Part shown: positions 6,359 to 45,923 of the stretch, one piece after another
Position numbering within the stretch: the stretch's first letter is position 1
Layout: each line of letters begins with the position of its first letter
Assembly: GCF_003815915.1 (NCBI RefSeq)
Contig: NZ_CP033929.1
Coordinates: 2,356,001-2,420,000, forward strand
From: Chryseobacterium indoltheticum
GTDB taxonomy: Bacteria > Bacteroidota > Bacteroidia > Flavobacteriales > Weeksellaceae
DNA: 64,000 bases
Direction: 5' to 3'
Notes under the pieces: model-generated
Databases searched by the model: none
Told to the model about the DNA's origin: nothing
The model's input: the letters and a program-made list of their open reading frames with translations, nothing else
Position numbers and translations under genes: made by a program

Positions 6359-6846
6359 TAATCCACTTTTTTTAGTTCAATGGTTTTCAGCATTTTTACA
6401 TATCTTCTGCCTGTCACAAAATCGGTAGGCGATAAGGTAGAAAAACCGTCCTTAGGTCTGCCCTCAACCTGCGGAATAACCAAAACATTGTCACCAACAG
6501 AAGTATTGAAGATTTCGTTCCATGAAAAAATGACTTTATAACCGTCTTCCGCTTTACAGACAATATAATATTCACTTAAAACCTTCGGCGACTTCTCTTT
6601 AAACGAAATTCTTGAAAGAACATCTTTAAGCAAAACACCCTTTATATTCTTAATTGTAGATTTATACTCCTTTACATGATTGGTTATCTGAATACTATCA
6701 AGGGTATGCTTAGGGAGTTTTCCCAGATCAGCAGTCGTCATTATTGTTTTTTCTTTATCTGGTGCGATGACTTCGATATTATTCTTCGCCTGTGAAAACG
6801 ATAAAGTTGAGATAAAAATAGTAACTGAAAAAATTAAATGTTTCAT
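6358..6846 (-). CDS. Secreted molybdopterin-binding-domain-like protein
   Basis: A 162-aa protein with a signal peptide (MKHLIFSVTIFISTLSFSQA). The mature part resembles the oxidoreductase molybdopterin-binding (SUOX/YedY-type) fold: a GVLLKDVLSRI segment, an AEDGYKVIFSWNEI strand pair, LVIPQVEGRPKDGF and a closing TGRRYVKMLKTIEL. It is much shorter than sulfite oxidase. Its only Cys (IVCKAEDGY) is not clearly the Mo ligand. It sits between the permease and moaD. It may bind Moco or a substrate outside the cytoplasm, or only share the fold. Function inferred. Confidence 0.7.
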   Translation of the reverse strand: MKHLIFSVTIFISTLSFSQAKNNIEVIAPDKEKTIMTTADLGKLPKHTLDSIQITNHVKEYKSTIKNIKGVLLKDVLSRISFKEKSPKVLSEYYIVCKAEDGYKVIFSWNEIFNTSVGDNVLVIPQVEGRPKDGFSTLSPTDFVTGRRYVKMLKTIELKKVD

Positions 6847-8775: not shown

Positions 8776-9368
8776 TCCTTAGTTTTTAAATTTTCATAAT
8801 CTGATGGCGTATCAATATCGATAGCACCTTGGTCAAAGGTAAAAATATTGACGTCATCCATATTTTGCTGAATGATTTTTTTTGCACCTTGTTCGCCGCT
8901 AAGATGTAGTAATTTTTTAAAATATTTTTTTGAAAACAATACAGGAACGCCGATCGTGCCTGCATATTCAGCAGCGATAATTTCTTTTGAAGAATAATCA
9001 GCAAGTTTTAACATTTCGATAAAAACTTCGCTTGAAAGATAAGGCTGATCGCAAACTGAAATAAAGCATCTTTCCATTTCCGGCAAATGATTCAATAAGA
9101 TTTGCAGTCCAGATTTTATGGATGAAGCCATTCCGGATTCCCATTCTTCATTGACTGATATTAATGTAATTTTATCCTTAATTTGAAAAGCTATTTCACT
9201 GTGATTTGCACCTAATACAATGATGATTTTATTATTATCGAATACTTGTAAAGAGGTATCAACTATCCTTTCCAGCAGAGTTTTTCCCTGATAAAGTAAC
9301 AGTTGTTTTGGCGACCCCATTCTTGTGGAATTTCCGGCAGCCAATAATATAATTCCGGTGTTTTTCAT
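8772..9368 (-). CDS. mocA: MocA-like molybdenum cofactor nucleotidyltransferase
   Basis: A 198-aa GT-A-fold nucleotidyltransferase. The N terminus has LLAAGNSTRMGSPKQLLLYQ; the PKQLL form is typical of MocA (CTP, making molybdopterin cytosine dinucleotide) rather than MobA (GTP). Also seen are SVCDQPYLSS and GTIGVPVLFSKKYF. The product would be the cofactor form used by PaoABC-type hydroxylases, two of which are encoded next door. It shares one base with the moaA stop and four with moeA. Specificity is inferred from motif and context. Confidence 0.85.
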   Translation of the reverse strand: MKNTGIILLAAGNSTRMGSPKQLLLYQGKTLLERIVDTSLQVFDNNKIIIVLGANHSEIAFQIKDKITLISVNEEWESGMASSIKSGLQILLNHLPEMERCFISVCDQPYLSSEVFIEMLKLADYSSKEIIAAEYAGTIGVPVLFSKKYFKKLLHLSGEQGAKKIIQQNMDDVNIFTFDQGAIDIDTPSDYENLKTKE

Positions 9369-10348
9369 TATCCGCCAATATTAATCATACTTCTGTTCTG
9401 AATAATCGAAGCATTTATTTTTTCAAACTTTTCATTCAGTTGTCCACCCTGCGTTTTTGCTTTTGACCAAATTGCTGATTCTATAATCGGTACAATATCC
9501 TGTCCTTCTCTAAACGGAGTTAACAGATCTGTTTCTTTTTTTGAAAAAAGACAGTTTTTCAGCCTACCGTCTGCAGTAAGTCTTATTCGATTGCATCCAC
9601 TGCAAAAAGGTTCGCTCATTGTACTGATAATGGAAAAACTTCCCTGATGTCCTTCGATGCTGAAATTTTTTGCTGTATCGTGAATGCCCATTGGCAAAGG
9701 TTTAAAATTGTATTTCTCTCGGATAATTTCTAGAATTTCTTTTTGGGTCATCACCTGATTACTGCTCCATCTGTTCCCGCTGAAGGGCATAAATTCTATA
9801 AAACGAACTTCCAAAAGCTGTGTTTTTGTAAATGCAATGAAGTCACAAATTTCATCATCATTAATTCCTTTCATCAAGACCACATTGATCTTGGTTTTGA
9901 TGTTCTTTTCCAGTAGCAGATTTATATTTCTCATCACGCGGTCAAAATAATCTCGGCGCGTTATCTTTTGAAATCTGTCTTTCTGTAAGGTATCGAGACT
10001 GATATTAATACTGTGAAAATTAGATTGAATAATCTCAGGAAGAAGATCATCGATACGAATCCCGTTTGTGGTGCAGCTCAATTGAACAGGTAATTTAGCC
10101 AAATTGGTGATGATCTTTGCGGCATCTTTTCTTACAAATGGTTCACCACCTGTGAGCCTGATTTTATTAACGCCATTTTTAACAAAAAGCTTTGCTAGCA
10201 TATCAATTTCATCCACCTGCATCAGTTTTGAATGCGGTGTAAAATCATAATTTTCTTCCGGCATGCAGTAAAAGCAACGGAGATTGCAGTTGTCCGTCAG
10301 CGATATCCGGAGATAATTGTGTATCCTTCCAAATTGATCTGTTAACAT
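9368..10348 (-). CDS. moaA: GTP 3',8-cyclase MoaA
   Basis: Radical SAM enzyme of 326 aa for the first step of Moco synthesis, GTP cyclisation. The SAM cluster motif CNLRCFYC is at residues 21-28, with GGEP in KIRLTGGEPFVRKD. The C-terminal second-cluster motif is FCSGCNRIRLTADGRLKNC, and the protein ends in the activity-linked diglycine (INIGG). Eleven bases separate it from xdhC. A complete family member. Confidence 0.97.
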   Translation of the reverse strand: MLTDQFGRIHNYLRISLTDNCNLRCFYCMPEENYDFTPHSKLMQVDEIDMLAKLFVKNGVNKIRLTGGEPFVRKDAAKIITNLAKLPVQLSCTTNGIRIDDLLPEIIQSNFHSINISLDTLQKDRFQKITRRDYFDRVMRNINLLLEKNIKTKINVVLMKGINDDEICDFIAFTKTQLLEVRFIEFMPFSGNRWSSNQVMTQKEILEIIREKYNFKPLPMGIHDTAKNFSIEGHQGSFSIISTMSEPFCSGCNRIRLTADGRLKNCLFSKKETDLLTPFREGQDIVPIIESAIWSKAKTQGGQLNEKFEKINASIIQNRSMINIGG

Positions 10349-10358
10349 AATTTTCTTT

Positions 10359-11477
10359 TTAAATCCTGATAATGTCAGTATGAATTTTTTCTTTTTTATC
10401 TCTTAGCGATAAACCCTTTTTACCACTCAGAACCGCTTTAATTTCAGCAATGACCGAAATGGCAATTTCTTCCGACGTTTCAGCACCAATATCCATTCCA
10501 ACAGGTCCGTAAAGTTTGTTTAATTCTTTTTCACCAACGCCGATCCCGTCATTTTTAAGATCTTCCAGCATTCTGTTAAGTTTAGTTTTGGGACCCAATA
10601 ATCCTATATACTTTGTTGGCTGATCGATAATTAGCTTTAACAATGCCAAATCATAATTATAATTGTGGGTCATTAAAACAAAAACTGTGGCCTCGTCAAT
10701 TTCAATGGTATTAATGATTTCCTCAGGCTTGGATAAGATAACTTCACTGGCAGTGGGAAATCTTTTTTTGAGAGCATGTGTTGCTCTTCCGTCCGCAACA
10801 ATGGTTTTCCAGCCCAGAATAGAGGCTGTTTCTACGAGAGGTTTAACATCATTTCCTGCTCCTGCAATAAGCAGAGTCGTCTGTGGGGATATATATTGAA
10901 GTAAAATTTCACTTGAAGATATTTTACTCAGTACGCTTTGTTTCTTTTCCAAAACTTGTAGTGAAAGATTTTGTAATTCAGTATCTGTAATGAAATCTGA
11001 GGTTAACAAAGTTACTTTATGATTATTCATCAATCCGACAGTTCCGATCTGCATGCTTCTGTTTTCAATGGAAAATGATGTTATAACAATGGATGCCATT
11101 CTGTTTTCTATTGATTTTTCTAAAAGGTGAATTGGATTTTGAGCACAACTCTCATCAATATATTCGAATAAAATATGAACAATTCCGTTGCATCCCAACT
11201 GTACCCCAAATTCTACATCATCGGGATTATTCGTGTCATACGTAACGAGTTTTTTACTTTTCTGATGAATGGCAAGGACGGCTTTTCTCAATGCATCACC
11301 TTCCAGACAGCCACCACTGATAGCTCCTGTGAGTTGTCCGTCTTCTGTCACCAGCATTCTTGCTCCAGCTTGCCGGTATGAAGAGCCTGCAACTTTTACA
11401 ACAGTAGCCAACGCTGTTTTTAATCCATCATTATGGGCTTTTTTATAGGCTTTTACGATGTCTTTGATCTCTTTCAT
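10359..11477 (-). CDS. xdhC: XdhC/CoxI family Moco chaperone
   Basis: A 372-aa protein with the XdhC_CoxI N-terminal domain (SSYRQAGARMLV then AISGGCLEGDALRKA) and a C-terminal Rossmann domain (TLLIAGAGNDVKPLVETA and VLMTHNYNYDLALLK). XdhC and its relative PaoD bind Moco, protect its sulfurated form and insert it into xanthine-dehydrogenase-family enzymes. First gene of the Moco operon and divergent from the hydroxylase operons, which fits chaperoning one or both. Start at 11477. Confidence 0.92.
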   Translation of the reverse strand: MKEIKDIVKAYKKAHNDGLKTALATVVKVAGSSYRQAGARMLVTEDGQLTGAISGGCLEGDALRKAVLAIHQKSKKLVTYDTNNPDDVEFGVQLGCNGIVHILFEYIDESCAQNPIHLLEKSIENRMASIVITSFSIENRSMQIGTVGLMNNHKVTLLTSDFITDTELQNLSLQVLEKKQSVLSKISSSEILLQYISPQTTLLIAGAGNDVKPLVETASILGWKTIVADGRATHALKKRFPTASEVILSKPEEIINTIEIDEATVFVLMTHNYNYDLALLKLIIDQPTKYIGLLGPKTKLNRMLEDLKNDGIGVGEKELNKLYGPVGMDIGAETSEEIAISVIAEIKAVLSGKKGLSLRDKKEKIHTDIIRI

Positions 11478-34292: not shown

Positions 34293-35657
34293 ATGAGCAA
34301 AACTTTTTTTAAAACTCAGTTACTGGCTTTAATTATATTATCTTTTTTGATAGTTTCTTGCAACCGTACAGATGATGAGGTGCCCAATTTTCCCGAAGGT
34401 AGCACCGAATCTGTGAATGTTTGGGTTCAGGACAGCATGAGACGATATTACTATTGGGCAGATCAGATGCCGCCAAAGCCCAATTATCATCTTCCGGTAA
34501 AAGACTTTTTTAAAAGTTTGTTGCTTCCTCAGGATCGTTTTTCATTTATCATTAATACAAGCGATGCATCTACTTATCCTCGTTCGGTAAGAAATATGTA
34601 TGGCTTTGATTATGCTGTTTTGCAGTTGGAAAATGGTGAAATTGTTACGGTCATAAAATTAGTTTTGAAAAATTCTCCCGCTCTGAATGCCGGATTGGAA
34701 AGAGGAATGATCATCAAAAAAATCGACGGACAAAATATTACCGCTTCTAACGCGGAACAATTAACTTCATCCATAGCCGAAAAAACGATGATCGAGCTTA
34801 CCGTAGGAAATTGGCAAAACGGATCGGTTGTTAATGAAAAAAACATTACAGTTTATTATGGGTATACTTTTGAGCAGCCTTTGACGTCTAAAATATTTGA
34901 TAAAAACGGAAAGAAAACAGGATATCTTTATATTTATGATTTTCCGGATGGGATGAGTCAGGCTCTCAATCAGAAATTCGCAGAATTTAAAAGTGCGGGA
35001 GTGCAGGATTTGGTTCTTGATCTCCGATACAATTATGGAGGTTCTGTTTCATCAGCTGCAGCACTTTGTGCGTTGATTCCGGCAGGAATTTCTGCAAATT
35101 CTCAGTTTATTACCTATAAAGGAAATAAAAACGGGGGCGAAGTTAAAAGGTCTTTTTCACAACAAATTGCTTACGCTTCCAATGCGATTAATTTTAATGC
35201 TTTACAAGCCAATTCTCTTGGTTTACAAAAAGTATATGTTTTAACCTCAAAAAGCACTGCTTCTGCTTCTGAAATTGTTATCAATAATCTAAAACCTTAT
35301 ATGGAAGTCATTCAGGTTGGTGAAGTTACATTAGGAAAAGACATGGCCGGATTTGTAATTGAAGACAAGCGAAAACCTAAAAAAATTACTTGGCAGATAC
35401 ATCCTGTTATTTATAAAGTATTCAATGCCAATGGTGAAGGGAATTATAATAATGGGATTTTTCCGCAAATCTCTGTTAATGAATTTATATCATTGCCATT
35501 ACTTCCTTTAGGCGATCCTGACGAAATATTGCTTTCTTCTGTGATGAATAAAATTTATTCAAAGTCTGTACATACAGAAGCTCAATCAAAAAGCGTAAAA
35601 ATCTTATTTCAAAGTGATCGTCCTTTTACTGTTCTTTCAAAATTAAATTTTAAGTAA
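34293..35657 (+). CDS. S41-family peptidase lipoprotein
   Basis: A 454-aa C-terminal-processing-type protease anchored by a lipobox (LIVSC, about Cys23). An N-terminal helical segment (VNVWVQDSMRRYYYWADQMP) is followed by a PDZ-like domain (SPALNAGLERGMIIKKIDGQ) and the protease core (DLVLDLRYNYGGSVSSAAAL). Likely nucleophile Ser lies in LTSKSTASASEIVINNLKPY, with a Lys in LGKDMAGF further on. It may process the surface proteins of this locus. Confidence 0.88.
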   Translation: MSKTFFKTQLLALIILSFLIVSCNRTDDEVPNFPEGSTESVNVWVQDSMRRYYYWADQMPPKPNYHLPVKDFFKSLLLPQDRFSFIINTSDASTYPRSVRNMYGFDYAVLQLENGEIVTVIKLVLKNSPALNAGLERGMIIKKIDGQNITASNAEQLTSSIAEKTMIELTVGNWQNGSVVNEKNITVYYGYTFEQPLTSKIFDKNGKKTGYLYIYDFPDGMSQALNQKFAEFKSAGVQDLVLDLRYNYGGSVSSAAALCALIPAGISANSQFITYKGNKNGGEVKRSFSQQIAYASNAINFNALQANSLGLQKVYVLTSKSTASASEIVINNLKPYMEVIQVGEVTLGKDMAGFVIEDKRKPKKITWQIHPVIYKVFNANGEGNYNNGIFPQISVNEFISLPLLPLGDPDEILLSSVMNKIYSKSVHTEAQSKSVKILFQSDRPFTVLSKLNFK

Positions 35658-35660
35658 AAT

Positions 35661-35933
35661 ATGCAAGGTATCGAACCAAAATTTCATAATACTCTCATCG
35701 AAAGAGCTAAATATTACCGTTACTTATTGGTCGAATCACAAAAAGATACTGATTCTAATTACCCCATAGATATTGATGAAGTTTCTGAATTAGGTAATCT
35801 TTATGAAGAATATCTGAAAAATAAAAGCCAGCTTGAAAAAAGCATAAAAAAATACAAGGAATGTCATAAAAAAGCACAGGCACAGCTATCTTTAAAAATC
35901 CGAATTGTAAGAAGAAATTTAAGAAACGGATAA
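35661..35933 (+). CDS. Small coiled-coil hypothetical protein
   Basis: A 90-aa, highly charged, helical protein (LGNLYEEYLKNKSQLEKSIK), no signal and basic C terminus. It starts three bases after the protease stop, so it is probably translated from the same mRNA. No family recognised; cytoplasmic by composition. Confidence 0.6.
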   Translation: MQGIEPKFHNTLIERAKYYRYLLVESQKDTDSNYPIDIDEVSELGNLYEEYLKNKSQLEKSIKKYKECHKKAQAQLSLKIRIVRRNLRNG

Positions 35934-36032
35934 AGGTTTTACTTGAATTAAAAACTGTGAGTAATTTAATTAATTAAAAACAATAAATTACCGTAGACAA
36001 CTATAAAGCTTCGTACAATATTATTAAGAATA

Positions 36033-36065
36033 AAATAATCCCACACTAACCATGTGGGATTATTT
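36033..36065. terminator. Bidirectional terminator
   Basis: A perfect 13-bp stem AAATAATCCCACA / TGTGGGATTATTT with 7-nt loop between convergent operons. A and T tracts flank it on both sides. Confidence 0.82.
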
Positions 36066-36179
36066 ATTAATATATTCTGGCAATATTTGCTGTGTAAATC
36101 AGTCCAGATATGTACCACATATTTCTCATAAAATATGACACGAGAAAGATGAGGTGATGTTTGATAAGTTTTTTGAAAC

Positions 36180-36689
36180 TTACTGCACAACCAGGTAAGT
36201 TTCATTTGTTGCGGGCAAATAAAACCAAAAGGATTCTACAAGTGTATTGCTGCCAATCTGGTAATCATATACCGGGGTTGTTCCGCATGGTGCAGAAAAA
36301 GCATCATCTCCCATCATATATTGGTCTCCGGTCTGTACCCCGTTTGCGTCTTTTGTCAAAAACCAAGAAAACTGCCAGCGTGTAATTGGGCTTACCGTAG
36401 TTAAGAAACCTGAATTCGGAGGGACATGGTTGGTAATTGCCCCTGTAGCCGAAGTTCTAGCTGACCAGCCTCCTATATAGGGTAAACTATCATTGTAATC
36501 TAAAATTGTTGCAGAAGTAGACGCAGGAAATTCATATGAAGTCCACACCGATGGTAAGCAATTTTGGCTTCCTCTGGCAAACAATCTTCCCTGCATATTG
36601 TAAACACTATAATTAAAAAGATTTAATGTACCTTGAGAAAATAGTGAATTTGAGATAACGCAAATTAAAATTAAAAAAAGTTTTTTCAT
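36180..36689 (-). CDS. Small secreted protein, NY-C-P family (paralogue A)
   Basis: A 169-aa secreted protein (signal MKKLFLILICVISNSLFSQG). It shares a pattern with 36698 and 38960: near the mature start an NY-x2-Y (LFNYSVYN), then NCLP, later PITRWQF, a second Cys (APCGTTPVYDY) and a final ESFWFYLP...TYLVVQ. Two Cys could form a disulfide. No known domain recognised. Third gene of a minus-strand operon with a small lipoprotein and paralogue B. Confidence 0.72.
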   Translation of the reverse strand: MKKLFLILICVISNSLFSQGTLNLFNYSVYNMQGRLFARGSQNCLPSVWTSYEFPASTSATILDYNDSLPYIGGWSARTSATGAITNHVPPNSGFLTTVSPITRWQFSWFLTKDANGVQTGDQYMMGDDAFSAPCGTTPVYDYQIGSNTLVESFWFYLPATNETYLVVQ

Positions 36690-36697
36690 AATATTTT

Positions 36698-37210
36698 TTA
36701 TTGAATTATAAAATAAGTTTCACCTCCTGAAACGAACCAAAATGCCTCGTATGCCCATGGAGCGCCCCCTTCATAGTCAACAAGCGGGGTATTGCAAACA
36801 ATAGTTCCCACGCTACCGCCACCATATGGAACGCCGCCACCGCTGACATAATGCAGAGAGAACTTATTGAGTTGCCAAGACGTTGTGGTCGCATAAGGTG
36901 TATTCAAAATAAGGTTGGTATGAGCCTGAGTGGTAACAGCACCACCTGCTGTATATACAGTCCAGCTTGGTATCGGAGGATTTACGAGCCCGCTCTGGTA
37001 ATAGCCGTTATAAGTTACAGCTGCCCCTGGTGGAACAGGAACCGGATGATTAGTTCCATTAAAACTTGGTAGACAGTTACCATTGCTTGAATTATAACCC
37101 ACCAATGAATTACTCAAATTATATGCAGTATAATTAAATATGTTTATTTTTCCCTGCCCAAAAGCAAAGGAACATATAAGAACCAGAGTGATAGAAATAT
37201 ATTTTTTCAT
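36698..37210 (-). CDS. Small secreted protein, NY-C-P family (paralogue B)
   Basis: A 170-aa secreted protein (signal ends about AFGQG). Pattern as in paralogue A: INIFNYTAYNLS, GNCLPSF, TTSWQLNKF, TIVCNTPLVDYE and terminal YEAFWFVSGGETYFIIQ. Gly-rich middle. Eight bases separate it from paralogue A and ten from the lipoprotein gene upstream. Unknown function; small rigid beta protein by composition. Confidence 0.72.
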   Translation of the reverse strand: MKKYISITLVLICSFAFGQGKINIFNYTAYNLSNSLVGYNSSNGNCLPSFNGTNHPVPVPPGAAVTYNGYYQSGLVNPPIPSWTVYTAGGAVTTQAHTNLILNTPYATTTSWQLNKFSLHYVSGGGVPYGGGSVGTIVCNTPLVDYEGGAPWAYEAFWFVSGGETYFIIQ

Positions 37211-37220
37211 GGCTCAATTT

Positions 37221-37595
37221 TTAGTTTTCTGATTTAGCATTTTGTTCCATCCCGCGTAATTTCTCAAAATAAAGCTTTGTCGCCTGAGAAATAACTTTTT
37301 CTTTACCCTCTCTTGATTCTGCTTTTGCAAATTCAATACGGTTAACTGTTAATAAATTGTTGGAGGCCTTATAGAGTATGTCAAGACTTCGTTCATTGAG
37401 TTGTGCGCCCAATCTCGATTTTTCTTCTGGTGTAGATCTGTTTTCAGGTTTCATCAGGGATTTTAAGGCGCCGTCAAAATTTTTCATTTCCTGCGTTTTT
37501 GAATTCTCAAGAGTACTGATAGCTGTTTGTTCGTTTGAGCATGACGCAAATAGTCCCGCTAAAGCAATCATCAATGTAAAAGTTAGTTTTTTCAT
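37221..37595 (-). CDS. Small lipoprotein paired with NY-C-P proteins (copy 1)
   Basis: A 124-aa lipoprotein (lipobox LFASC, Cys19). The mature part is helical and charged: QEMKNFDGALKSLMK, LNERSLDILYKASNNLL, ATKLYFEKLRGME. The same three blocks appear in the lipoprotein at 38588 (AMENFENALKTI, LNEEGVEVLLPAASQLL, GFSVYHENLAQYR), so they are paralogues although their genes point in opposite directions. First gene of the minus-strand module; probably works with the secreted proteins it precedes. Confidence 0.75.
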   Translation of the reverse strand: MKKLTFTLMIALAGLFASCSNEQTAISTLENSKTQEMKNFDGALKSLMKPENRSTPEEKSRLGAQLNERSLDILYKASNNLLTVNRIEFAKAESREGKEKVISQATKLYFEKLRGMEQNAKSEN

Positions 37596-37938
37596 GTTTA
37601 AAATTGTTTAATAAATTGTTTTTAGGTTTTATGATAAGGTCTTTATGTAGGTTTTATGTAAACAAGAAAGGAGAGCTTATGATCCCTATTGATCTAGATT
37701 AAATTGGTTGAATTTTAAGGAGAAATATTTTCAAAATATATGCATTAAACTCCTTCTAGGGTATACAAGAAAGTTTAGGATAGTTATCTCAAAATTTTGA
37801 GTTTGCTAAGTACATTTGCTGTAAAGATCAGGGAGTTTCTGGGCATGTTTTACCCGATACAATTTTTGTATAGTTGTATATCTCATATTAATAATTTGAA
37901 TGGTTTTAGTTGAATATCACTAACAGTGAAATTCGTTA

Positions 37939-37967
37939 CAAATGTAAAAAATAAATTTACATATCAA
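37939..37967 (-). promoter_or_regulatory. Promoter toward the minus-strand lipoprotein module
   Basis: TTG (37967-37965), 18 bp, TACATTTG (37946-37939) on the minus strand. It would give a leader of about 340 nt before the 37595 start. Confidence 0.5.
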
Positions 37968-38074
37968 TTGTTTTTTATGATTTTTTTAATTGCGAATTAA
38001 TTATTAATAATGATTTAATATTGTGTTTTAATTTTATTTTTAAAACAAAAACATCAAAGTGTATAAATAATTTA

Positions 38075-38082
38075 TATATTTG
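38075..38082 (+). promoter_or_regulatory. -7 element upstream of a small ORF
   Basis: TATATTTG matches TAnnTTTG exactly, but no TTG lies at the expected distance. It is 54 bp before the ATG at 38137. Confidence 0.45.
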
Positions 38083-38136
38083 TCACGAATCTTCTTTGGA
38101 TAGATTTACACTAATAATCACATCAAAACTATTAAC

Positions 38137-38286
38137 ATGATACATTTTTGTATTAAAATGTTATGTAAAATAAAGCAATTTTCTATTTCTTTATTTGCAT
38201 ATCATCCTCACACTTATTATCGTCACAAACTTTCAATTACGAAGAAGTTTCAGAGGCTCATTTTGACTCTTCCGAAACCGGTCTAA
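38137..38286 (+). CDS. Possible small basic protein, 49 aa
   Basis: ATG to TAA, 49 codons, following a -7 element. The peptide (MIHFCIKMLCKIKQFSISLF then a His/Tyr/Arg-rich centre and LILTLPKPV) is basic with two Cys near the start. No family recognised. It may be a leader peptide, a small protein or a chance ORF. Confidence 0.25.
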   Translation: MIHFCIKMLCKIKQFSISLFAYHPHTYYRHKLSITKKFQRLILTLPKPV

Positions 38287-38587
38287 TTAGATCTCAATGG
38301 AGATTTTAACGTGAAATTTATTCACTTACAATATTATTTGTGATCGCTTCACTGCCTGAGCATTTACCTCGCTATGTATTGAGTTCTGCATTACCCATAA
38401 AACGTATACTTACATATACTGATGAGTTTAACTTATTGTGAATCATAGTGCTATAGGGTTTATTCCTGTTTTTGTTGCAGAGTTTATTTGTTGCGTCGGT
38501 AAAAGGGTTAAAAAACTACCATCAACTTTAAAGGGTCAAAATTAAATATAGTTTAAACTAAATATATTAACCAAAAATCAAAAAAAA

Positions 38588-38947
38588 ATGAGAAAAATTG
38601 CTTGCATAGCCATGTTAAGCTTATTAACAGTCAGTTGCCAAAATGAACAAAGGCAAAGCACAGAAGTGACAGAAACAGTAGTATCTCTAAAGAGTGATGC
38701 TATGGAAAACTTCGAGAATGCTTTAAAAACAATAGCAAAAGGTCAGACGAGATTTATTGATAGCAATAAAGCGCTTAATGAAGAAGGTGTCGAAGTTTTG
38801 CTGCCAGCAGCTTCACAACTATTGATTGATAATAACATGTCAGAGACTGAGCTTAAAAGAATGGAAAAAAGAAAAATTCTTAAAAAAGGATTCTCAGTGT
38901 ATCATGAAAATCTTGCGCAATACAGAAATAAAATTAAATCAAACTAA
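38588..38947 (+). CDS. Small lipoprotein paired with NY-C-P protein (copy 2)
   Basis: A 119-aa lipoprotein (MRKIACIAMLSLLTVSCQNE, lipobox TVSC). Helical, charged, paralogous to 37221 by its three blocks (AMENFENALKTI, LNEEGVEVLLPAASQLL, HENLAQYRNKIKSN). Twelve bases separate it from the secreted protein gene. A 12-bp palindrome lies about 30 bp before its start. Confidence 0.75.
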   Translation: MRKIACIAMLSLLTVSCQNEQRQSTEVTETVVSLKSDAMENFENALKTIAKGQTRFIDSNKALNEEGVEVLLPAASQLLIDNNMSETELKRMEKRKILKKGFSVYHENLAQYRNKIKSN

Positions 38948-38959
38948 TAACTATTTATC

Positions 38960-39529
38960 ATGAAAAAATTATTAATCTTATGTATCGCTTTAGCATCTGT
39001 TCCATTTTATAAAGCATATAGCATTAGTGATGAGATGCAGATACTTAATTACAGCAGATATACACTTGGTGGGCATATCAGTGCTCGTGCTGACAATTGC
39101 TTTCCTGCACTGAGAGGAGAATTCAGTGATAATATATATCCTGATGGCGATCCATTAGGGAGAAATGTGACTTATTACAAAAAATTTAGAAATTCTCAAA
39201 ATGCCATTGTTCCCATTACCCAATGGAGGGTTGCAACTACTGCAAATACCTATGTCACTCAATCTGCAAACAATCCTATTTTAGATAATCCGTTTGGAAC
39301 TTTGGCAAGATGGGGTGGGATTGAAGTTGAGTATTGGAATCCGAACGGTGGGCCTTATGACAATGGAGGTTTTGCATTAAATTATGATGTACGGATGGAA
39401 TCACCGGGAAGTCCGAATGTCTGTTTATTATACCCTATGAATTATACTGATGCTAATGTGACTGTAACATCATTTTATTTGGATCCAACAGCACCAGATG
39501 ATTATGTTGTGGTGATTGTAAATTCATAA
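38960..39529 (+). CDS. Small secreted protein, NY-C-P family (paralogue C)
   Basis: A 189-aa secreted protein with a short signal (MKKLLILCIALASVPFYKAYS). Shared pattern: QILNYSRYTLGG, a RADNCFPAL Cys, VPITQWRVAT, a second Cys (NVCLLYPMNY) and terminal VTSFYLDPTAPDDYVVVIV. It has an Asn/Gly-rich middle (WNPNGGPYDNGG). With 38588 it repeats the organisation of the opposite-strand module. Function unknown. Confidence 0.72.
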   Translation: MKKLLILCIALASVPFYKAYSISDEMQILNYSRYTLGGHISARADNCFPALRGEFSDNIYPDGDPLGRNVTYYKKFRNSQNAIVPITQWRVATTANTYVTQSANNPILDNPFGTLARWGGIEVEYWNPNGGPYDNGGFALNYDVRMESPGSPNVCLLYPMNYTDANVTVTSFYLDPTAPDDYVVVIVNS

Positions 39530-39546
39530 TAATATAAATTAGTTTC

Positions 39547-39580
39547 AAGCCCTTAAATTCAATGCTTAAGAGCTTTTTTT
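39547..39580 (+). terminator. Terminator after the plus-strand module
   Basis: A 10-bp stem AAGCCCTTAA / TTAAGAGCTT with one mismatch, followed by T7-8. Confidence 0.75.
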
Positions 39581-39597
39581 ACTAAATTTAAAATGTT

Positions 39598-39765
39598 ATG
39601 AAGGATAATGATTTTATTTAGATTAGAAATGCTATAAAAGTAAATGGCACCAACTGTCTTTTGTTGGCGCCATTTAGCATTGTACCCATAACCGAAGAGA
39701 TGTCGGAATATCTGGTGGAAGATTTAGAAAGAATCATGGAAGTTTCACAACCCCAGTCTTTATGA
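39598..39765 (+). pseudogene. Broken ORF starting with a copy of the desulfurase 5' end
   Basis: From ATG at 39598 the frame reads MKDNDFI, a TAG at codon 8, then IRNAIKVNGTNC, LLLAPFSIVPITEEM, SEYLVEDLERIMEVS and a TGA at 39763-39765. The first codons and the DNA before them match the cysteine desulfurase start at 2523-2551 (28 of 29 bases); the later codons do not. The later peptide looks protein-like but I do not recognise it. Confidence 0.4.
39641..39676. repeat. Palindrome with 14-bp stem
   Basis: TAAATGGCACCAAC and GTTGGCGCCATTTA flank an 8-nt loop, with one mismatch. No T tract follows, so it is not a clear terminator. It may mark an old element end. Confidence 0.55.
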
Positions 39766-39931
39766 TTTATTTTAAATGGTGGATTAAGTGCAAGTCTTTT
39801 TACCATAAAGACTGTCTCATAACAAGCGGTCTAATATCGTTTATGTAAAATAAAATTTCAACTTCTTATATCGCAAACTATATGTTCTGTGCTGAAAATA
39901 TAAGTAATTGAACAATTATAATTTGACTTTA

Positions 39932-41035
39932 TTATTCTGAAAGTTTGAAAGTAAACTCGTTTCTTGAATCTGTTTTATAAGCATATTTTTGGGTAATTGG
40001 CGAAATACCGAAAAGAGGAGAATATGTTTTCACTTTTACCGTTTTATTATCCGGATAGAACTCAATAATTCTCAGCCAGCCATCACCTCCGTTACCATCA
40101 CGATGACCACCACCTTCACTTTGCATATCAAAAAGCATCTGATTCACGTTTTTCCCATAACTGTTGTGATCTACACGAAAACCTTCTCCTGAAATATGGC
40201 CACTTAATACCAATTGGAGATTTTGAGACGGCTCTATCAGCTTTTTCCATATTTGTTCTCCGTTATTAGATTCCGGAAGTACGATGGTTTTTGATTTTTG
40301 CGGAACATTGTTTATTAGAAAAGGCTCATACATAAACCACGAATTTGCTTTATCAGTTCTCTTATCTTTTTCATTTAAAAAGGCGTGGGTGATTAAAATT
40401 GATTTATGGTTTTTGTATTGAGGCATATCCAATACTTTTTTAGCCCATTCCAATGCTTTATTTCTTGGCGCAAATTCAAGGCTGAGAAATAAATAGTCCT
40501 GGCCATTTAATCCTTTCAATTCTAAAACAGAATTTTCCATGCTTGGAGCACCGGCATCATTAAAAAAGTTCTGTGCTAAATATTTCTGATTTAAATAATT
40601 AAAATTAGACGGAAAAAACTCGTTGTAACGAGAAAATCTTCTGCCTTCTTCATTAATACTAAAATCATGATTTCCCGTTGCAGCAACGTAAGGGACTTTT
40701 CCATTCAGCCTTCCTAAGATTGACTGCACAGATTTCCATTGGTCATCTGCACTTTGGTCGCCATCATATCCTTGATTAAGTATGTTATTATGTTCCACCA
40801 AGTCACCAACCTGACAAACCATTTTAATATTTAACGGAGAAATATTATCCTCAATCCATCTTACCATCAAATCTAGAACAGGCTGGTTTCTGTTCCACTT
40901 CACATAGTTTTGGGTGTCCGGTATCAGGATGATGCTCCATGATTTTTCATTATCTAATTTTGGAGTCTGAAATTTGTCCTGTGCAAAAATCACTGCAGAC
41001 AGTAGTAAAAGCAATATTGATATATTCTTCTTCAT
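39932..41035 (-). CDS. Secreted calcineurin-like metallophosphoesterase
   Basis: A 367-aa protein with signal MKKNISILLLLLSAVIFAQ. Metallophosphoesterase motifs in order: ILIPDTQNY, MVCQVGDLVEHNN (GDxxxxxN type), ATGNHDF (GNHD), a LITHAFL His and LVLSGHISGEG (GH). It would cleave phosphomono- or diesters outside the cytoplasm. Last gene of the SusC/SusD operon, so the locus may take up a phosphorylated or phosphodiester-linked substrate. Confidence 0.9.
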   Translation of the reverse strand: MKKNISILLLLLSAVIFAQDKFQTPKLDNEKSWSIILIPDTQNYVKWNRNQPVLDLMVRWIEDNISPLNIKMVCQVGDLVEHNNILNQGYDGDQSADDQWKSVQSILGRLNGKVPYVAATGNHDFSINEEGRRFSRYNEFFPSNFNYLNQKYLAQNFFNDAGAPSMENSVLELKGLNGQDYLFLSLEFAPRNKALEWAKKVLDMPQYKNHKSILITHAFLNEKDKRTDKANSWFMYEPFLINNVPQKSKTIVLPESNNGEQIWKKLIEPSQNLQLVLSGHISGEGFRVDHNSYGKNVNQMLFDMQSEGGGHRDGNGGDGWLRIIEFYPDNKTVKVKTYSPLFGISPITQKYAYKTDSRNEFTFKLSE

Positions 41036-41050
41036 AATTTTTCTTTAAAA

Positions 41051-42784
41051 TTAATAACCAGGGTTTTGTTTTAATAATGGATTTGCGTCCATTTCTGATT
41101 GTGGTATCGGCCAATATTCATCTTTATTTGGCGTGTACACCACTTGCTGTGTTGAGAAAGATGCTGAAGCTTGTGAATGATTATAAATAGGATTCGCGCT
41201 TTCATCAAAACCTGTTATTACAGATTTTGTCCAGTTATTTCCGTTACGGTTTAGGTATAAATATCCGTTCATCACGGTGTTTGCAATGCCCCAACGTCTG
41301 ATGTCATACCATCTCAATCCGTCATTTGCCAGTTCTACTTTTCTTTCGTATCGAAGGGCTTTTCTCAATTGAGCCTGTGACATTCCGGTCGGTAAAGCCG
41401 GCATTTTCGCACGCAATCTGATCTGATTAATCATATCATAAACCGAATTATCCAACTGATTCGACTCAATTTTTGCTTCTGCGTAAATCAACATTAATTC
41501 TGATAATCTGAAAATCCCAACATTTAAATCTGAATTTCCACTTACCGATGTAGAATTAAAGTCAGCAATATCAACTGTCTTTCTCCAGAGATAGCCGCTG
41601 AAAGAACGATAGGCGTTCGTTGCATCAGCATTGTTCACTTGTGTTGGTGCTCCTGCCGACCAATAGTTGTTTACTTTTGTGAAAGAAGTGTGGGGCTCAA
41701 ATTGATACCCAAGATACCTAGAATGTGGTCGTACAGCATACATATCCAGACGTGGATCTCTGTTTTTAAATGGATTTGCATTATCGTATAAAGGAGAATC
41801 TATGATTGAAAGTCCATCGATCATCTGATAAGAATCGATAAGATTTTGGGTGGGTCCCCAGTAGCAAACGCCTTTGCCCAAACGAGACGCTGCATAATAT
41901 TGCTGATTATGAAGATAACCGGGTACATTCATATTGAATTCAGCAACCCAAATCCATTCTTTACTTGCTGAAAAACCATTATGTCCAAATATATTACTCG
42001 GATCAGGCTCTCCAACGGTATGATCTTTACCAACGTAATTCACAGAAGCATTAAAAGGTGTTAAGCTATAAACTCCTGCTGCTGCGTCTAAAGCCTGTTT
42101 TGAAGTAACGGCGGCGGCGGCGTATTGTTTAGAATAAAGCTCTACTCTTGCTTTTAGCATTAAAGCTGCTATACGGGATGCGCGCACATTTCCATATTGT
42201 GATTGTGAAATAGGAAGTTGAGGTGCAACTGCTCCAAGTTCTGCAATAATAAACTGCTGAATTTCTGCAACAGGTGTTCTTGCAACATTAGCATTTTCAA
42301 GCGTAACTGATGATTTTATTAATGGAACATCACCGTAAAGTTCGATCAATTGAGAATAGGCATAAGCACGAATAAATCTTAATTCTGAATCAAGCTCAGA
42401 TTTTTGCGCAGCGGTAAGTCCTGCAATTTCATCTAATTTATCGAGAACTGCGTGGCATCTTGCAATTGTTTTATAATGAATTTCCCATGGTTTTATGGTT
42501 AATGCATTGGTCGTGGTAATAGAACTCGTGATAGGAGAGGTGTAGTTGGTTCCAGGTCTTGCATATCCGATATCCGTAATATTATCCATCACATGCCAGA
42601 TCGGCGTACTCGCAGCGTCGATTGTACTTAAGTTTCTGTATGCAGCAAAAAGACCCATTTTTCCTTCGTCATAAGATGCGGGAAAAGTTTCGGATGTTGG
42701 CCCGTTAAGTGGTTCTAAATCCATATCGGCGCTTGAGCACGAAGTGATTATGGCTAAAAGAGATATTTTTAAAAAGTTTTTCAT
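41051..42784 (-). CDS. SusD/RagB-family outer-membrane lipoprotein
   Basis: A 577-aa surface glycan- or peptide-binding lipoprotein. I use the start at 42784 (MKNFLKISLLAIITSCSSAD, lipobox ITSC) rather than 42820. SusD features: helical TPR-like body (ELRFIRAYAYSQLIELYGDV), and C-terminal RLSELMLIYAEAKIE, NQIRLRAKMPALP, RKALRYERKVELANDGLRWY and DEYWPIPQSEMDANPLLKQN. It pairs with the SusC receptor, forming a lid over the barrel. 13 bp between the genes. Confidence 0.95.
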   Translation of the reverse strand: MKNFLKISLLAIITSCSSADMDLEPLNGPTSETFPASYDEGKMGLFAAYRNLSTIDAASTPIWHVMDNITDIGYARPGTNYTSPITSSITTTNALTIKPWEIHYKTIARCHAVLDKLDEIAGLTAAQKSELDSELRFIRAYAYSQLIELYGDVPLIKSSVTLENANVARTPVAEIQQFIIAELGAVAPQLPISQSQYGNVRASRIAALMLKARVELYSKQYAAAAVTSKQALDAAAGVYSLTPFNASVNYVGKDHTVGEPDPSNIFGHNGFSASKEWIWVAEFNMNVPGYLHNQQYYAASRLGKGVCYWGPTQNLIDSYQMIDGLSIIDSPLYDNANPFKNRDPRLDMYAVRPHSRYLGYQFEPHTSFTKVNNYWSAGAPTQVNNADATNAYRSFSGYLWRKTVDIADFNSTSVSGNSDLNVGIFRLSELMLIYAEAKIESNQLDNSVYDMINQIRLRAKMPALPTGMSQAQLRKALRYERKVELANDGLRWYDIRRWGIANTVMNGYLYLNRNGNNWTKSVITGFDESANPIYNHSQASASFSTQQVVYTPNKDEYWPIPQSEMDANPLLKQNPGY

Positions 42785-42797
42785 TTTTTTTTTAGAA

Positions 42798-45700
42798 TTA
42801 AAATTTAACATCAATACCAAACGAAACGGTTTTTACCTGTGGATAATAATTTCCACCTCCCAAAGCGACGCCGTCAGAACTCCCAAGATTATAATTAATT
42901 TCAGGATCATATCCTTCATAAAAATCAGTGACAGTCAAGAGATTTTGTCCATTTAGATAGAGATAGATGCTTTGCAGAAATGTGTTCTCAGTAAAAGATT
43001 TAGGTAATTCATATCCGATCTGTACATTTTTAAGACGCATATACGCTGCACTTCTCATCCACTTGGTCGAGTTTTGTGTGTTGTTTGTTGATGTAAGGGA
43101 AACACGTGGAAATTCAGCATCGGTATTTTCAGGTGTCCAATAATCCAATTGCCAAGGTTTCACAGCACTTGAGTTAACCGCAGGAATGACATAATGTGAA
43201 TCTAAATAACCGTCAACTTTACCAACACCCTGTATCAATGCGGATAATTTAAAACCTTTATAAGATAAACCCATATTAAACCCATAAGTATATCTTGGTA
43301 CAGTACTTCCGATAATGGTTCTGTCAGCATCTGTAATTTTTCCGTCCCCGATTGGATTTCCGTTTGCATCAAAAGCTCCGGCAATATCCTTATATCTGAT
43401 ATCTCCGGGTTTTAAAGTTCCAAATTGTGTAGGACCGGCATTAATTTCTGCCTGACTTTGATATAATCCATCAGCAATAAATCCATAAATAGAATTTACT
43501 GAAGATCCAACCTGTTGACGAAGAAGCGTTCCGGAAGACTGACCTTTCATGTCAACGATTTCATTTTTAACGTCAGAAAGATTAAAACCAATATTCATTT
43601 TAAAGTCTCCCCATCTTTCATTGTACTGCGCACCGATTTCCCAACCTTTGTTGCTTACTGTTGCAGCATTTTGTACGGGTGCTTCCAAACCTGTAAGCTG
43701 AGAAGTATTTAATCTTAAAAGAATTCCATCAGTTTTTTTATTGTAAATATCAAAAGTAAGGTCTAACTTTCTCCATAAAGATAAATCGACACCCAGACCT
43801 GACATTGTAGTTTCTTCCCACTTCAGATCAGGGTTAGACATGATTAATTGCTGGATCGTTTGATATACAACTCCGTTCATTGAAGTGCTTCCCAATGATA
43901 AAGGTTCTGAAAAAGGATAATACGAAGAACTGATATTCTGATTTCCCAGTTTTCCCCAAGATCCTCTGAATTTTAACTGGCTGATCGTTCCTCTTAAACC
44001 TTCGAAAAAGTTTTCTCTCGAAACCACCCAACCCGCAGAAAATGACGGAAAAACTGCCCAACGGTTTTTGCCGATAAACCTCGATGTACCGTCATATCTT
44101 ACATTTGCTTCAAATAAATATTTCTGATCGAAATTATAATTAAATCTTCCAAAAGCAGAAACCAATAACCACTCATATTCTGATCCTGCATTATCTTTGG
44201 TTTCGTTATCTGCACCTGCATCAATCACTTCGTAGTTGTCATAAAGAAAATCTCTTCTGTAACCGGATAATATTTTTTCGTTATATGTTTCTCTTGAAGC
44301 TCCGGCAAGAAGCTCAAAACCGTGTTTACCAAAGTCTTTTTTTGCGTCTGCCTGAAACTGATAGGTTCCGTAAAACTGACGTCTTGCAGATTCTGTAAGT
44401 TCAGTAAAAGTGTTGGCAGAACCTGCTTCTGTTCCGTCTTCATAATAAGTTGGAACACTTTTTCTGAAAAGATGAATATTGGTCGTAAGATAACGTGGAG
44501 CTATCATACCTTTTAATGTTAACCAATCGGTAGGTTTGTAAGAAATGTTCATGTTTCCTATAAATTCCAGATTATTCTGTTTACGGTTTCCACCATTTTC
44601 GATATAACCGACCGGATTGATTTTTACCCATCCGTCAGAATAATTTTCACCATAATAAATGGGGATGTTGGTGGGCATTCTTCCAAGATAATTCCAGACC
44701 GTTCCTTCATCGGCAATCTGTGTTCTATCTTTATTTAAGAATGACATATCGAGTCTGATATTCCATTGGTCATTCGGGGTAATATCCATGTTATTACGGA
44801 AAACAAATCTCGTAAAGTCAGTGTTTTTAATAATACCTTCCTGTTTCGAATATCCAAATGACGGCGATACACTTATAATTCCTGATTTCGCGGATAAAGA
44901 AAGATAATGATCCTGCAAGAATCCGCTTCCCTGAAGAATCGCTTTTTGCCAGTCGTAATTGCTTGGATTTTTGTTGTATTCGTTTCTGAAATCATTGATG
45001 GCTTCGTCACTGTATATCTTTGTACCATTGTCATTCATGCTTGCATCATTGAATACTTTCATGTAGGTAAGGCCATCCGTAACTTTTGGTATTGCTGTAG
45101 CTCTTTGCCACCCTGTATACATTCTGTATTGAGCAGTCAGCTTATTTCCCTTCGCACGTTTTGTAGTAACAAGAATAACTCCACCCGCTGCTCTGGAACC
45201 ATATATGGCAGCAGAAGCAGCATCTTTTAGAACAGAAATAGACTCGATCATGTTTACATCGACATCATTGATATTTCCTGCAACACCATCAATAATCACC
45301 AGAGGATTGCTGTCTGAACCTCCAAAACTGTTGATCCCCCTTATTCTTATATTTCCGGCATCACCTCCTGGCGCACCTGTTTGGGTAGTGACCGTAACAC
45401 CCGGTGCAAGACCCTGTAAAAGATTACCGGCCGAAATTACTGGTTGTCCTTCTGCTGTTGAGCCCTTCACAACGGAAACGGACCCTGTGATAATAGATTT
45501 TTTCTGTGTACCGTAACCGACAACTACAACTTCTTCTATCTGTTTTTCCTGATTGCTTAAAGTATCTTTTTTGGGTTCTAAATTATTTTCTGCAAAAGAA
45601 GACCTAGTGGAAGCTAATTTTCTAAGGCTTACCGTATTATTCTGGATTTGATAATCTAACGGAACACTTTTTTTCAGATAGTTTAGACTTTGCTGTAATG

Positions 45701-45923
45701 ATGAATAATTGATTTTGCTTTCATCTACCCAAATGTTTTTAAAATCTGAGGCAGAATAAAAGAATTTGGTCTTGGTAGATTTCTCTAATTTTTTAAGTAT
45801 TTTGACTAATGAAACCTGCCGCTGGTTATTGGTGACAGCCATTTTAGTCTGGGTTTGTGCATAATTTTGCACGGGAAGTCCCATAGCGACGAGTAAAGCA
45901 ATAGAAATTGCAGTTTTTTTCAT
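42798..45923 (-). CDS. SusC/RagA TonB-linked outer-membrane receptor with STN
   Basis: A 1041-aa receptor. Signal about 1-22; STN domain about 35-105 (VSLVKILKKLEKSTKTKFFY), which fits sigma/FecR signalling; plug about 125-250 (QIEEVVVVGYGTQKKSIITG, IRIRGINSFGGSDSNPLVII, GSRAAGGVILVTTK); and a barrel ending VKTVSFGIDVKF. Odd: the usual carboxypeptidase-regulatory-like domain between STN and plug is missing. The STN runs through a short linker straight into the plug motif. Confidence 0.94.
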   Translation of the reverse strand: MKKTAISIALLVAMGLPVQNYAQTQTKMAVTNNQRQVSLVKILKKLEKSTKTKFFYSASDFKNIWVDESKINYSSLQQSLNYLKKSVPLDYQIQNNTVSLRKLASTRSSFAENNLEPKKDTLSNQEKQIEEVVVVGYGTQKKSIITGSVSVVKGSTAEGQPVISAGNLLQGLAPGVTVTTQTGAPGGDAGNIRIRGINSFGGSDSNPLVIIDGVAGNINDVDVNMIESISVLKDAASAAIYGSRAAGGVILVTTKRAKGNKLTAQYRMYTGWQRATAIPKVTDGLTYMKVFNDASMNDNGTKIYSDEAINDFRNEYNKNPSNYDWQKAILQGSGFLQDHYLSLSAKSGIISVSPSFGYSKQEGIIKNTDFTRFVFRNNMDITPNDQWNIRLDMSFLNKDRTQIADEGTVWNYLGRMPTNIPIYYGENYSDGWVKINPVGYIENGGNRKQNNLEFIGNMNISYKPTDWLTLKGMIAPRYLTTNIHLFRKSVPTYYEDGTEAGSANTFTELTESARRQFYGTYQFQADAKKDFGKHGFELLAGASRETYNEKILSGYRRDFLYDNYEVIDAGADNETKDNAGSEYEWLLVSAFGRFNYNFDQKYLFEANVRYDGTSRFIGKNRWAVFPSFSAGWVVSRENFFEGLRGTISQLKFRGSWGKLGNQNISSSYYPFSEPLSLGSTSMNGVVYQTIQQLIMSNPDLKWEETTMSGLGVDLSLWRKLDLTFDIYNKKTDGILLRLNTSQLTGLEAPVQNAATVSNKGWEIGAQYNERWGDFKMNIGFNLSDVKNEIVDMKGQSSGTLLRQQVGSSVNSIYGFIADGLYQSQAEINAGPTQFGTLKPGDIRYKDIAGAFDANGNPIGDGKITDADRTIIGSTVPRYTYGFNMGLSYKGFKLSALIQGVGKVDGYLDSHYVIPAVNSSAVKPWQLDYWTPENTDAEFPRVSLTSTNNTQNSTKWMRSAAYMRLKNVQIGYELPKSFTENTFLQSIYLYLNGQNLLTVTDFYEGYDPEINYNLGSSDGVALGGGNYYPQVKTVSFGIDVKF

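Follow-up and report, generated by a model that had tools for sequence, protein, structure and literature searches.

What links a small lipoprotein to the small secreted proteins encoded directly behind it? A locus at positions 36180..39529 of a 64,000-nucleotide stretch of the Chryseobacterium indoltheticum chromosome (hereafter the window) raises this question, as it carries two divergent operons, each with a lipoprotein gene in front of one or two secreted protein genes. We call the small lipoprotein family LP and the small secreted protein family SP. A sequence-only reading of the window had described a duplicated and unrecognised module, and proposed a lipoprotein-ligand or chaperone-cargo system at the cell surface. 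We found that LP and SP genes are almost always paired, and that they form arrays in which LP is constant and the SPs diverge. This combination suggests a dedicated system of helper and cargo that has not been described before.

Organization of the locus

LP proteins are helical lipoproteins of ~120 amino acids, and SP proteins are ~170–190 amino acids in length with a signal peptide. The features of the locus are as follows.

LP1, 37221..37595, minus strand: 124-amino acid lipoprotein, lipobox Cys19, CSNE, all-helical (open reading frame (ORF), homology to LP2, and AlphaFold2 (AF2) model).
SP1, 36698..37210, minus strand: 170-amino acid secreted protein, predicted β-sandwich (ORF and AF2 model).
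SP2, 36180..36689, minus strand: 169-amino acid secreted protein, paralogue of SP1 (ORF and alignment).
Divergent intergenic region, 37596..38587: 992 bp between the operons.
LP2, 38588..38947, plus strand: 119-amino acid lipoprotein, CQNE (ORF and homology).
SP3, 38960..39529, plus strand: 189-amino acid secreted protein (ORF and homology).

The ORF list bears out the five coding regions and their arrangement as LP1-SP1-SP2 and LP2-SP3, pointing apart across 992 bp, and the intra-operon gaps of 8, 10, and 12 bp agree with the 8–12 bp first described. The two LPs are related (33% identity; within-genome match, E 3.3e-7), as are the three SPs (35% and 25% identity to SP2; SP2 versus SP1, about 36% identity; SP3 to SP1 match, E 1.8e-7). 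SP1 is also 49% identical to an SP of genome G028. The motifs N-Y-x2-Y and N-C-x-P are invariant in an alignment of the window SPs. Each of these has a second cysteine, as had been noted, but its position is not aligned among the three. An aromatic C terminus does not hold for the window SPs, which end in Q, Q, and S, but is common in the wider family (Y, F, or W as last residue in 167 of 280 SPs). The host genome (one contig, 4.25 Mb) has a second divergent locus (L007) ~160 kb from the window module, with an LP-SP and an LP-SP-SP group on opposite strands.

The suggestion that no described family fits was sustained, with none of the five window proteins having a convincing match in Pfam, NCBIfam, PHROG, or PADLOC. 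Pfam searches with 58 SP and 18 LP relatives gave scattered weak matches only (best, 1e-4), and a search of PDB sequences gave no match for SP and no convincing one for LP. Protein searches returned 22, 52, and 54 proteins, none with a Pfam domain. Relatives with a name are mostly Chryseobacterium proteins labelled "hypothetical protein"; automatic names occur for a few (Ig-like domain-containing, P0009 and P0127; lipoprotein, P0032; T9SS C-terminal target domain, P0092). Among the matches listed in the open-access literature, titles and abstract openings revealed no paper on the LP-SP module.

LP and SP genes are paired and form arrays

We examined 78 loci (the window, L007, and L038–L113), in which profiles built from the LP and SP sets themselves identified 195 LP and 288 SP ORFs. 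These loci were selected through LP or SP matches and come from related genomes, and very divergent SPs escape the profiles (one such in L078). For 191 of the 195 LPs, an SP is directly next on the same strand at ≤300 bp (median gap, 6 bp). One of the four exceptions, in L078, has an SP-like ORF below threshold behind it. Conversely, 191 of the 288 SPs stand directly after an LP and 93 after another SP, which leaves only four without an LP or SP just upstream in loci chosen by such matches. SP homologues are thus not found mostly without the lipoprotein partner.

The conserved pairing that had been proposed is also far above chance across the genus. LP (E ≤ 0.01) was matched in 46 of 118 Chryseobacterium genomes and SP (E ≤ 1e-5) likewise in 46. 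Both families occur in 44 genomes, LP alone in two (G082 and G115), SP alone in two (G055 and G081; of these four, G055 was inspected), and neither in 70 (Fisher p 2e-27, a guide only, since the genomes are related). The genes are therefore both adjacent and co-occurring, as expected of a cognate chaperone-cargo pair.

The description of the module as duplicated was correct in that the copies are real, but understated their number, as a single locus holds up to eight LPs. Arrays with four to eight LPs occur at 23 loci (L038–L057 and L106–L108). By eye, 21 of these adjoin the same polyphosphate-kinase-like gene, which suggests a single, old site in the chromosome for most arrays.

Constant lipoproteins beside divergent secreted proteins

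Mature LP paralogues from the 23 loci that have three or more LPs are on average 93% identical in sequence, with a mean proportion of synonymous differences (pS) of 0.54 and of nonsynonymous differences (pN) of 0.04. These values indicate that the LP copies are old and held by selection, and the pS of about 0.54 rules out recent duplication as the cause of their likeness. In strong contrast with the mature part, the LP signal peptides of the same loci are 64% identical (pN 0.21). The pN/pS of mature LP is ~0.07 among paralogues and 0.08 between orthologous modules.

SP paralogues in the 23 arrays have a mean identity of 36% (795 pairs, absence of a BLAST hit counted as 0). The best match of 188 of 200 array SPs lies in another genome rather than in their own array, indicating old, stable positions. 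Between orthologues, SP pN/pS ranges from 0.11 to 0.42, varying with divergence, and so each SP is itself conserved. The arrays are in effect a natural experiment, placing up to eight LP copies held by selection beside SPs that share, on average, about a third of their residues.

Distribution

In a sample of 197 genomes of the family, 44 had an LP match at E ≤ 1e-3, of which 17 were below 1e-20; the remaining 27 were weaker than 1e-5 and mostly covered the N-terminal part. Strong LP matches outside Chryseobacterium came from four genomes (G129, G131, G137, and G156). In a sample of the order, LP and SP matched the identical 10 of 346 genomes and none outside the family (10–12 candidates scored per genome). 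One array-type LP had no relative in plasmid or phage collections, which gives no sign of mobile spread.

Restriction of LP and SP to one bacterial family among the sampled genomes, together with the lack of any match with a known function or Pfam domain, would suit two proteins that are merely co-transcribed and have separate functions, the arrays being an ordinary lineage-specific expansion. We consider this quite unlikely, as nearly all SPs and SP pairs have retained an LP in front, purifying selection on the LP copies is strong, and the two families coincide across genomes. Neither family has a recognised relative, and the two are tied together in genome after genome.

An element upstream of the first lipoprotein gene

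A WCAC-N7-TGAW element, often CAC-N6-GTG, is located 59–94 nt before the start of the first LP in most clusters (47 of 76). Inner LPs have it in only 1 of 119 cases and other genes in 14 of 651; with near-identical upstream sequences collapsed, the counts are 26 of 49 first LPs versus 4 of 407 other genes. At 15 first LPs the element is present twice within 200 nt, with a spacing of 77–78 bp in 14 cases. Examples upstream of first LPs are the following.

L038:6513-6527 and 6591-6605: two copies of the element.
L067:5218-5232: element.
L081:6577-6591: element.

Presence before first but not inner LPs suggests that each array is probably one operon, and the arrays are probably under a common regulator. 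A separate promoter for each module was unsupported, given the single inner LP with the element and the absence of a TAnnTTTG box from all 54 inner gaps of ≥40 bp. No element was found within 140 nt of the LP starts in the window or at L007, where one copy lies farther away in the divergent gap (L007:8519-8533); these copies may be otherwise regulated. A generic Bacteroidota promoter pattern was at chance level in the window (20 found versus 19.5 expected).

LP as a putative dedicated chaperone

The reading we favor, tentatively and at a little under an even chance, is that LP is a periplasm-facing, lipid-anchored chaperone or holdase dedicated to a diversified, secreted β-sandwich SP. The signal peptide would take an SP into the periplasm, where it would fold as a small β-sandwich, usually with one disulfide bond. 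Helical LP, made just ahead of its SP from the same mRNA and facing the periplasm, would act as its stoichiometric dedicated partner and keep it folded or inert until release or export. SP would diversify and LP would not because every LP serves the shared SP fold or one common machine. With one transcript per array, repeated LPs fit matched amounts rather than separate regulation. The constancy of LP and the absence of the element at inner LPs thus leave a stoichiometric partner for a shared SP fold. Between the two roles first proposed, chaperone and cargo suit a constant LP and a variable SP better than ligand binding does, although both are proposals.

In single-chain predictions, the AF2 model of LP1 (predicted local distance difference test score (pLDDT), 85.4) has five helices, and that of SP1 (pLDDT 84.4; predicted template modelling score, 0.78) is a β-sandwich. 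Mature SPs mostly have two cysteines or none (two in 196, none in 56, one in 12, and three in 16 of 280), as expected for a disulfide that is lost as a pair, and SP therefore appears usually to hold one disulfide.

The side of the membrane that LP faces can be considered from its N terminus. In Capnocytophaga, the export signal of surface lipoproteins includes two or more acidic residues that follow the +1 cysteine (PMC5080379). Exactly one acidic residue occurs at +2 to +7 in 174 of 177 LPs, and two or three in the other three. By comparison, SusD-like lipoproteins of the host genome, by a count from their N-termini, have two or three in 10 of 11 cases. Most LPs thus lack the paired acidic residues, which speaks against the placement of the lipoprotein at the cell surface in the sequence-only reading and suggests that LP faces the periplasm.

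Several points weigh against the chaperone reading. The eleventh SusD-like control also has a single acidic residue, and the export signal is that of Capnocytophaga and may not be that of Chryseobacterium. LP and SP are not in a one to one ratio, as 93 of the 288 SPs are preceded by an SP and not an LP. The LP model has no convincing match among known folds. Similarities of LP and SP are correlated (Mantel r 0.70, p 0.0005; 64 nonredundant of 177 modules), but this correlation and the phyletic match can come from joint inheritance of one operon without contact between the proteins. Mature LPs within a genome (pS 0.543, pN 0.037) are slightly more alike than those of orthologous modules in different genomes (pS 0.589, pN 0.046), and homogenisation by recombination may therefore add to selection. 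Lastly, some of the copies from outside the genus appear defective, with stops in three of the four matched LP stretches (the G137 ORF is still 122 amino acids), short LP ORFs in G129 and G156, and a split SP in G131.

A related but unlikely possibility is a new class of cassette with constant carrier and variable cargo, in which an invariant periplasmic LP, repeated ahead of the members of a diversified secreted family, would route many β-sandwich cargos, encoded in a single operon, through a common outer-membrane exit.

Comparison with known helper and immunity systems

The lipase-specific foldase Lif is a membrane-anchored helical helper whose gene lies beside that of one secreted client; it is larger than LP and anchored in the inner membrane. 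By description, LP as a helper would resemble Lif in its helical fold, its membrane anchor, and its place next to a secreted client.

The main rival to the chaperone reading is immunity, in which SPs would be antibacterial proteins that act on membranes and LP a lipoprotein that blocks them in general and so protects the producer. PMC11169675 provides a precedent from Bacteroidota, in that the lipoprotein BcdI of Bacteroides fragilis, encoded directly upstream of a secreted, pore-forming cholesterol-dependent cytolysin-like (CDC-like) toxin, can be an antidote; the LP-SP module has the same gene order. This precedent keeps immunity the main rival. BcdI is a 30.4-kDa surface protein on a mobile element, whereas LP is ~13 kDa, mostly without a surface signal, and occurs in chromosomal arrays as repeated, almost invariant copies; the one array-type LP searched had no plasmid or phage match. 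CDC-like toxins are also far larger than SP.

Structural comparison of the SP model with VIA ranked aegerolysins and actinoporins high but weakly. All matches had Z < 8, values that are common by the tool's own scale, and a Vps13 adaptor domain ranked first; Foldseek gave no match at E ≤ 0.001. These weak matches detract from a membrane-active role. SP resembles aegerolysins and actinoporins in size and in its modelled β-sandwich, but differs in having a signal peptide, usually two cysteines, and a lipoprotein neighbor. The aegerolysin Pfam model (PF06355) matched none of 58 SPs (E ≤ 0.1) or of the three window SPs (E ≤ 10), and the actinoporin model none of the 58. Aegerolysins work by themselves or together with MACPF-like partners, whereas SP adjoins a lipoprotein.

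Polymorphic toxin-immunity loci also form arrays with a variable part, but there toxin and immunity protein vary together. A specific antidote should likewise diversify with its toxin, but LP is constant within arrays, which argues against a separate specific antidote for each SP. The purifying selection on SP orthologues does not suggest an ongoing arms race. Taken together, we judge the immunity reading rather unlikely. The chaperone reading also accommodates membrane activity, as an LP acting as chaperone or holdase could keep such an SP inert within the cell that makes it. If LP serves the SP fold in general, as chaperone or as antidote, a single lipoprotein would cope with many different secreted partners, and a route of secretion or antagonism in a common environmental genus would come to light through the arrays.

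Propeller-like neighbors

A ~600-amino acid propeller-like secreted protein is encoded directly after SP in at least L098–L101 (outside the genus), L078 (twice), and L095; for the loci between L058 and L091, counts of neighbors are lower bounds. The label rests on repeats seen by eye and one Pfam SBBP match below cut-off (L100).

L098:5371-7218: propeller-like protein.
L099:5710-7545: propeller-like protein.
L100:5960-7714: propeller-like protein.
L101:5633-7446: propeller-like protein, split into two ORFs (SP also split).
L095:2833-4650: propeller-like protein.
L078:5875-7734 and 9029-10879: two propeller-like proteins.

A type IX sorting tail was present at all four loci scanned (L098–L101), below the curated cut-off in two. 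These neighbors raise the prospect that SPs are surface adhesins or matrix lectins that LP helps to assemble at the outer membrane, sometimes with the type IX-secreted propeller-like protein. Paralogue arrays, common for surface proteins, would be in keeping with this. However, the type IX C-terminal sorting domain (Por_Secre_tail) had no match in the window SPs or in 58 SPs, nor was there an adhesin family match. P0092, the SP relative whose UniRef name invokes such a domain, has no Pfam domain at all. LPs mostly lack a surface signal as well, and the propeller-like gene usually occurs apart from SP. An SP profile match adjoins the propeller-like gene in 6 of 30 family loci (L114–L116, L118, L136, and L137), and no SP lies within ~1.5 kb in the other 24, a weak match in L124 (E 8e-4) being counted as none. 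We therefore regard the adhesin reading as improbable.

The same 24 loci rule out the propeller-like protein as a fixed third component. It may be a trace of an older form with three genes, or a partner that the module has only occasionally. The host genome has a propeller-like gene (C1:2526073-2527860) without LP or SP. Outside the genus, L137:3312-3689 (G162) encodes an SP-like piece beside a propeller-like gene at the edge of the stretch, with no LP match.

Other features

An orphan SP without LP (L087:5367-5870) is located between two large, mutually similar secreted proteins, as judged by eye. No Rfam match was found in window positions 35000-41000 (E ≤ 0.1). The LP-SP module of the window is adjoined by a phosphoesterase-like gene (39932-41035, by eye). 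At 41051-45923 on the minus strand are a SusD-like lipoprotein (Pfam SusD-like_3 match) and, by eye, a large SusC-partner-like protein.

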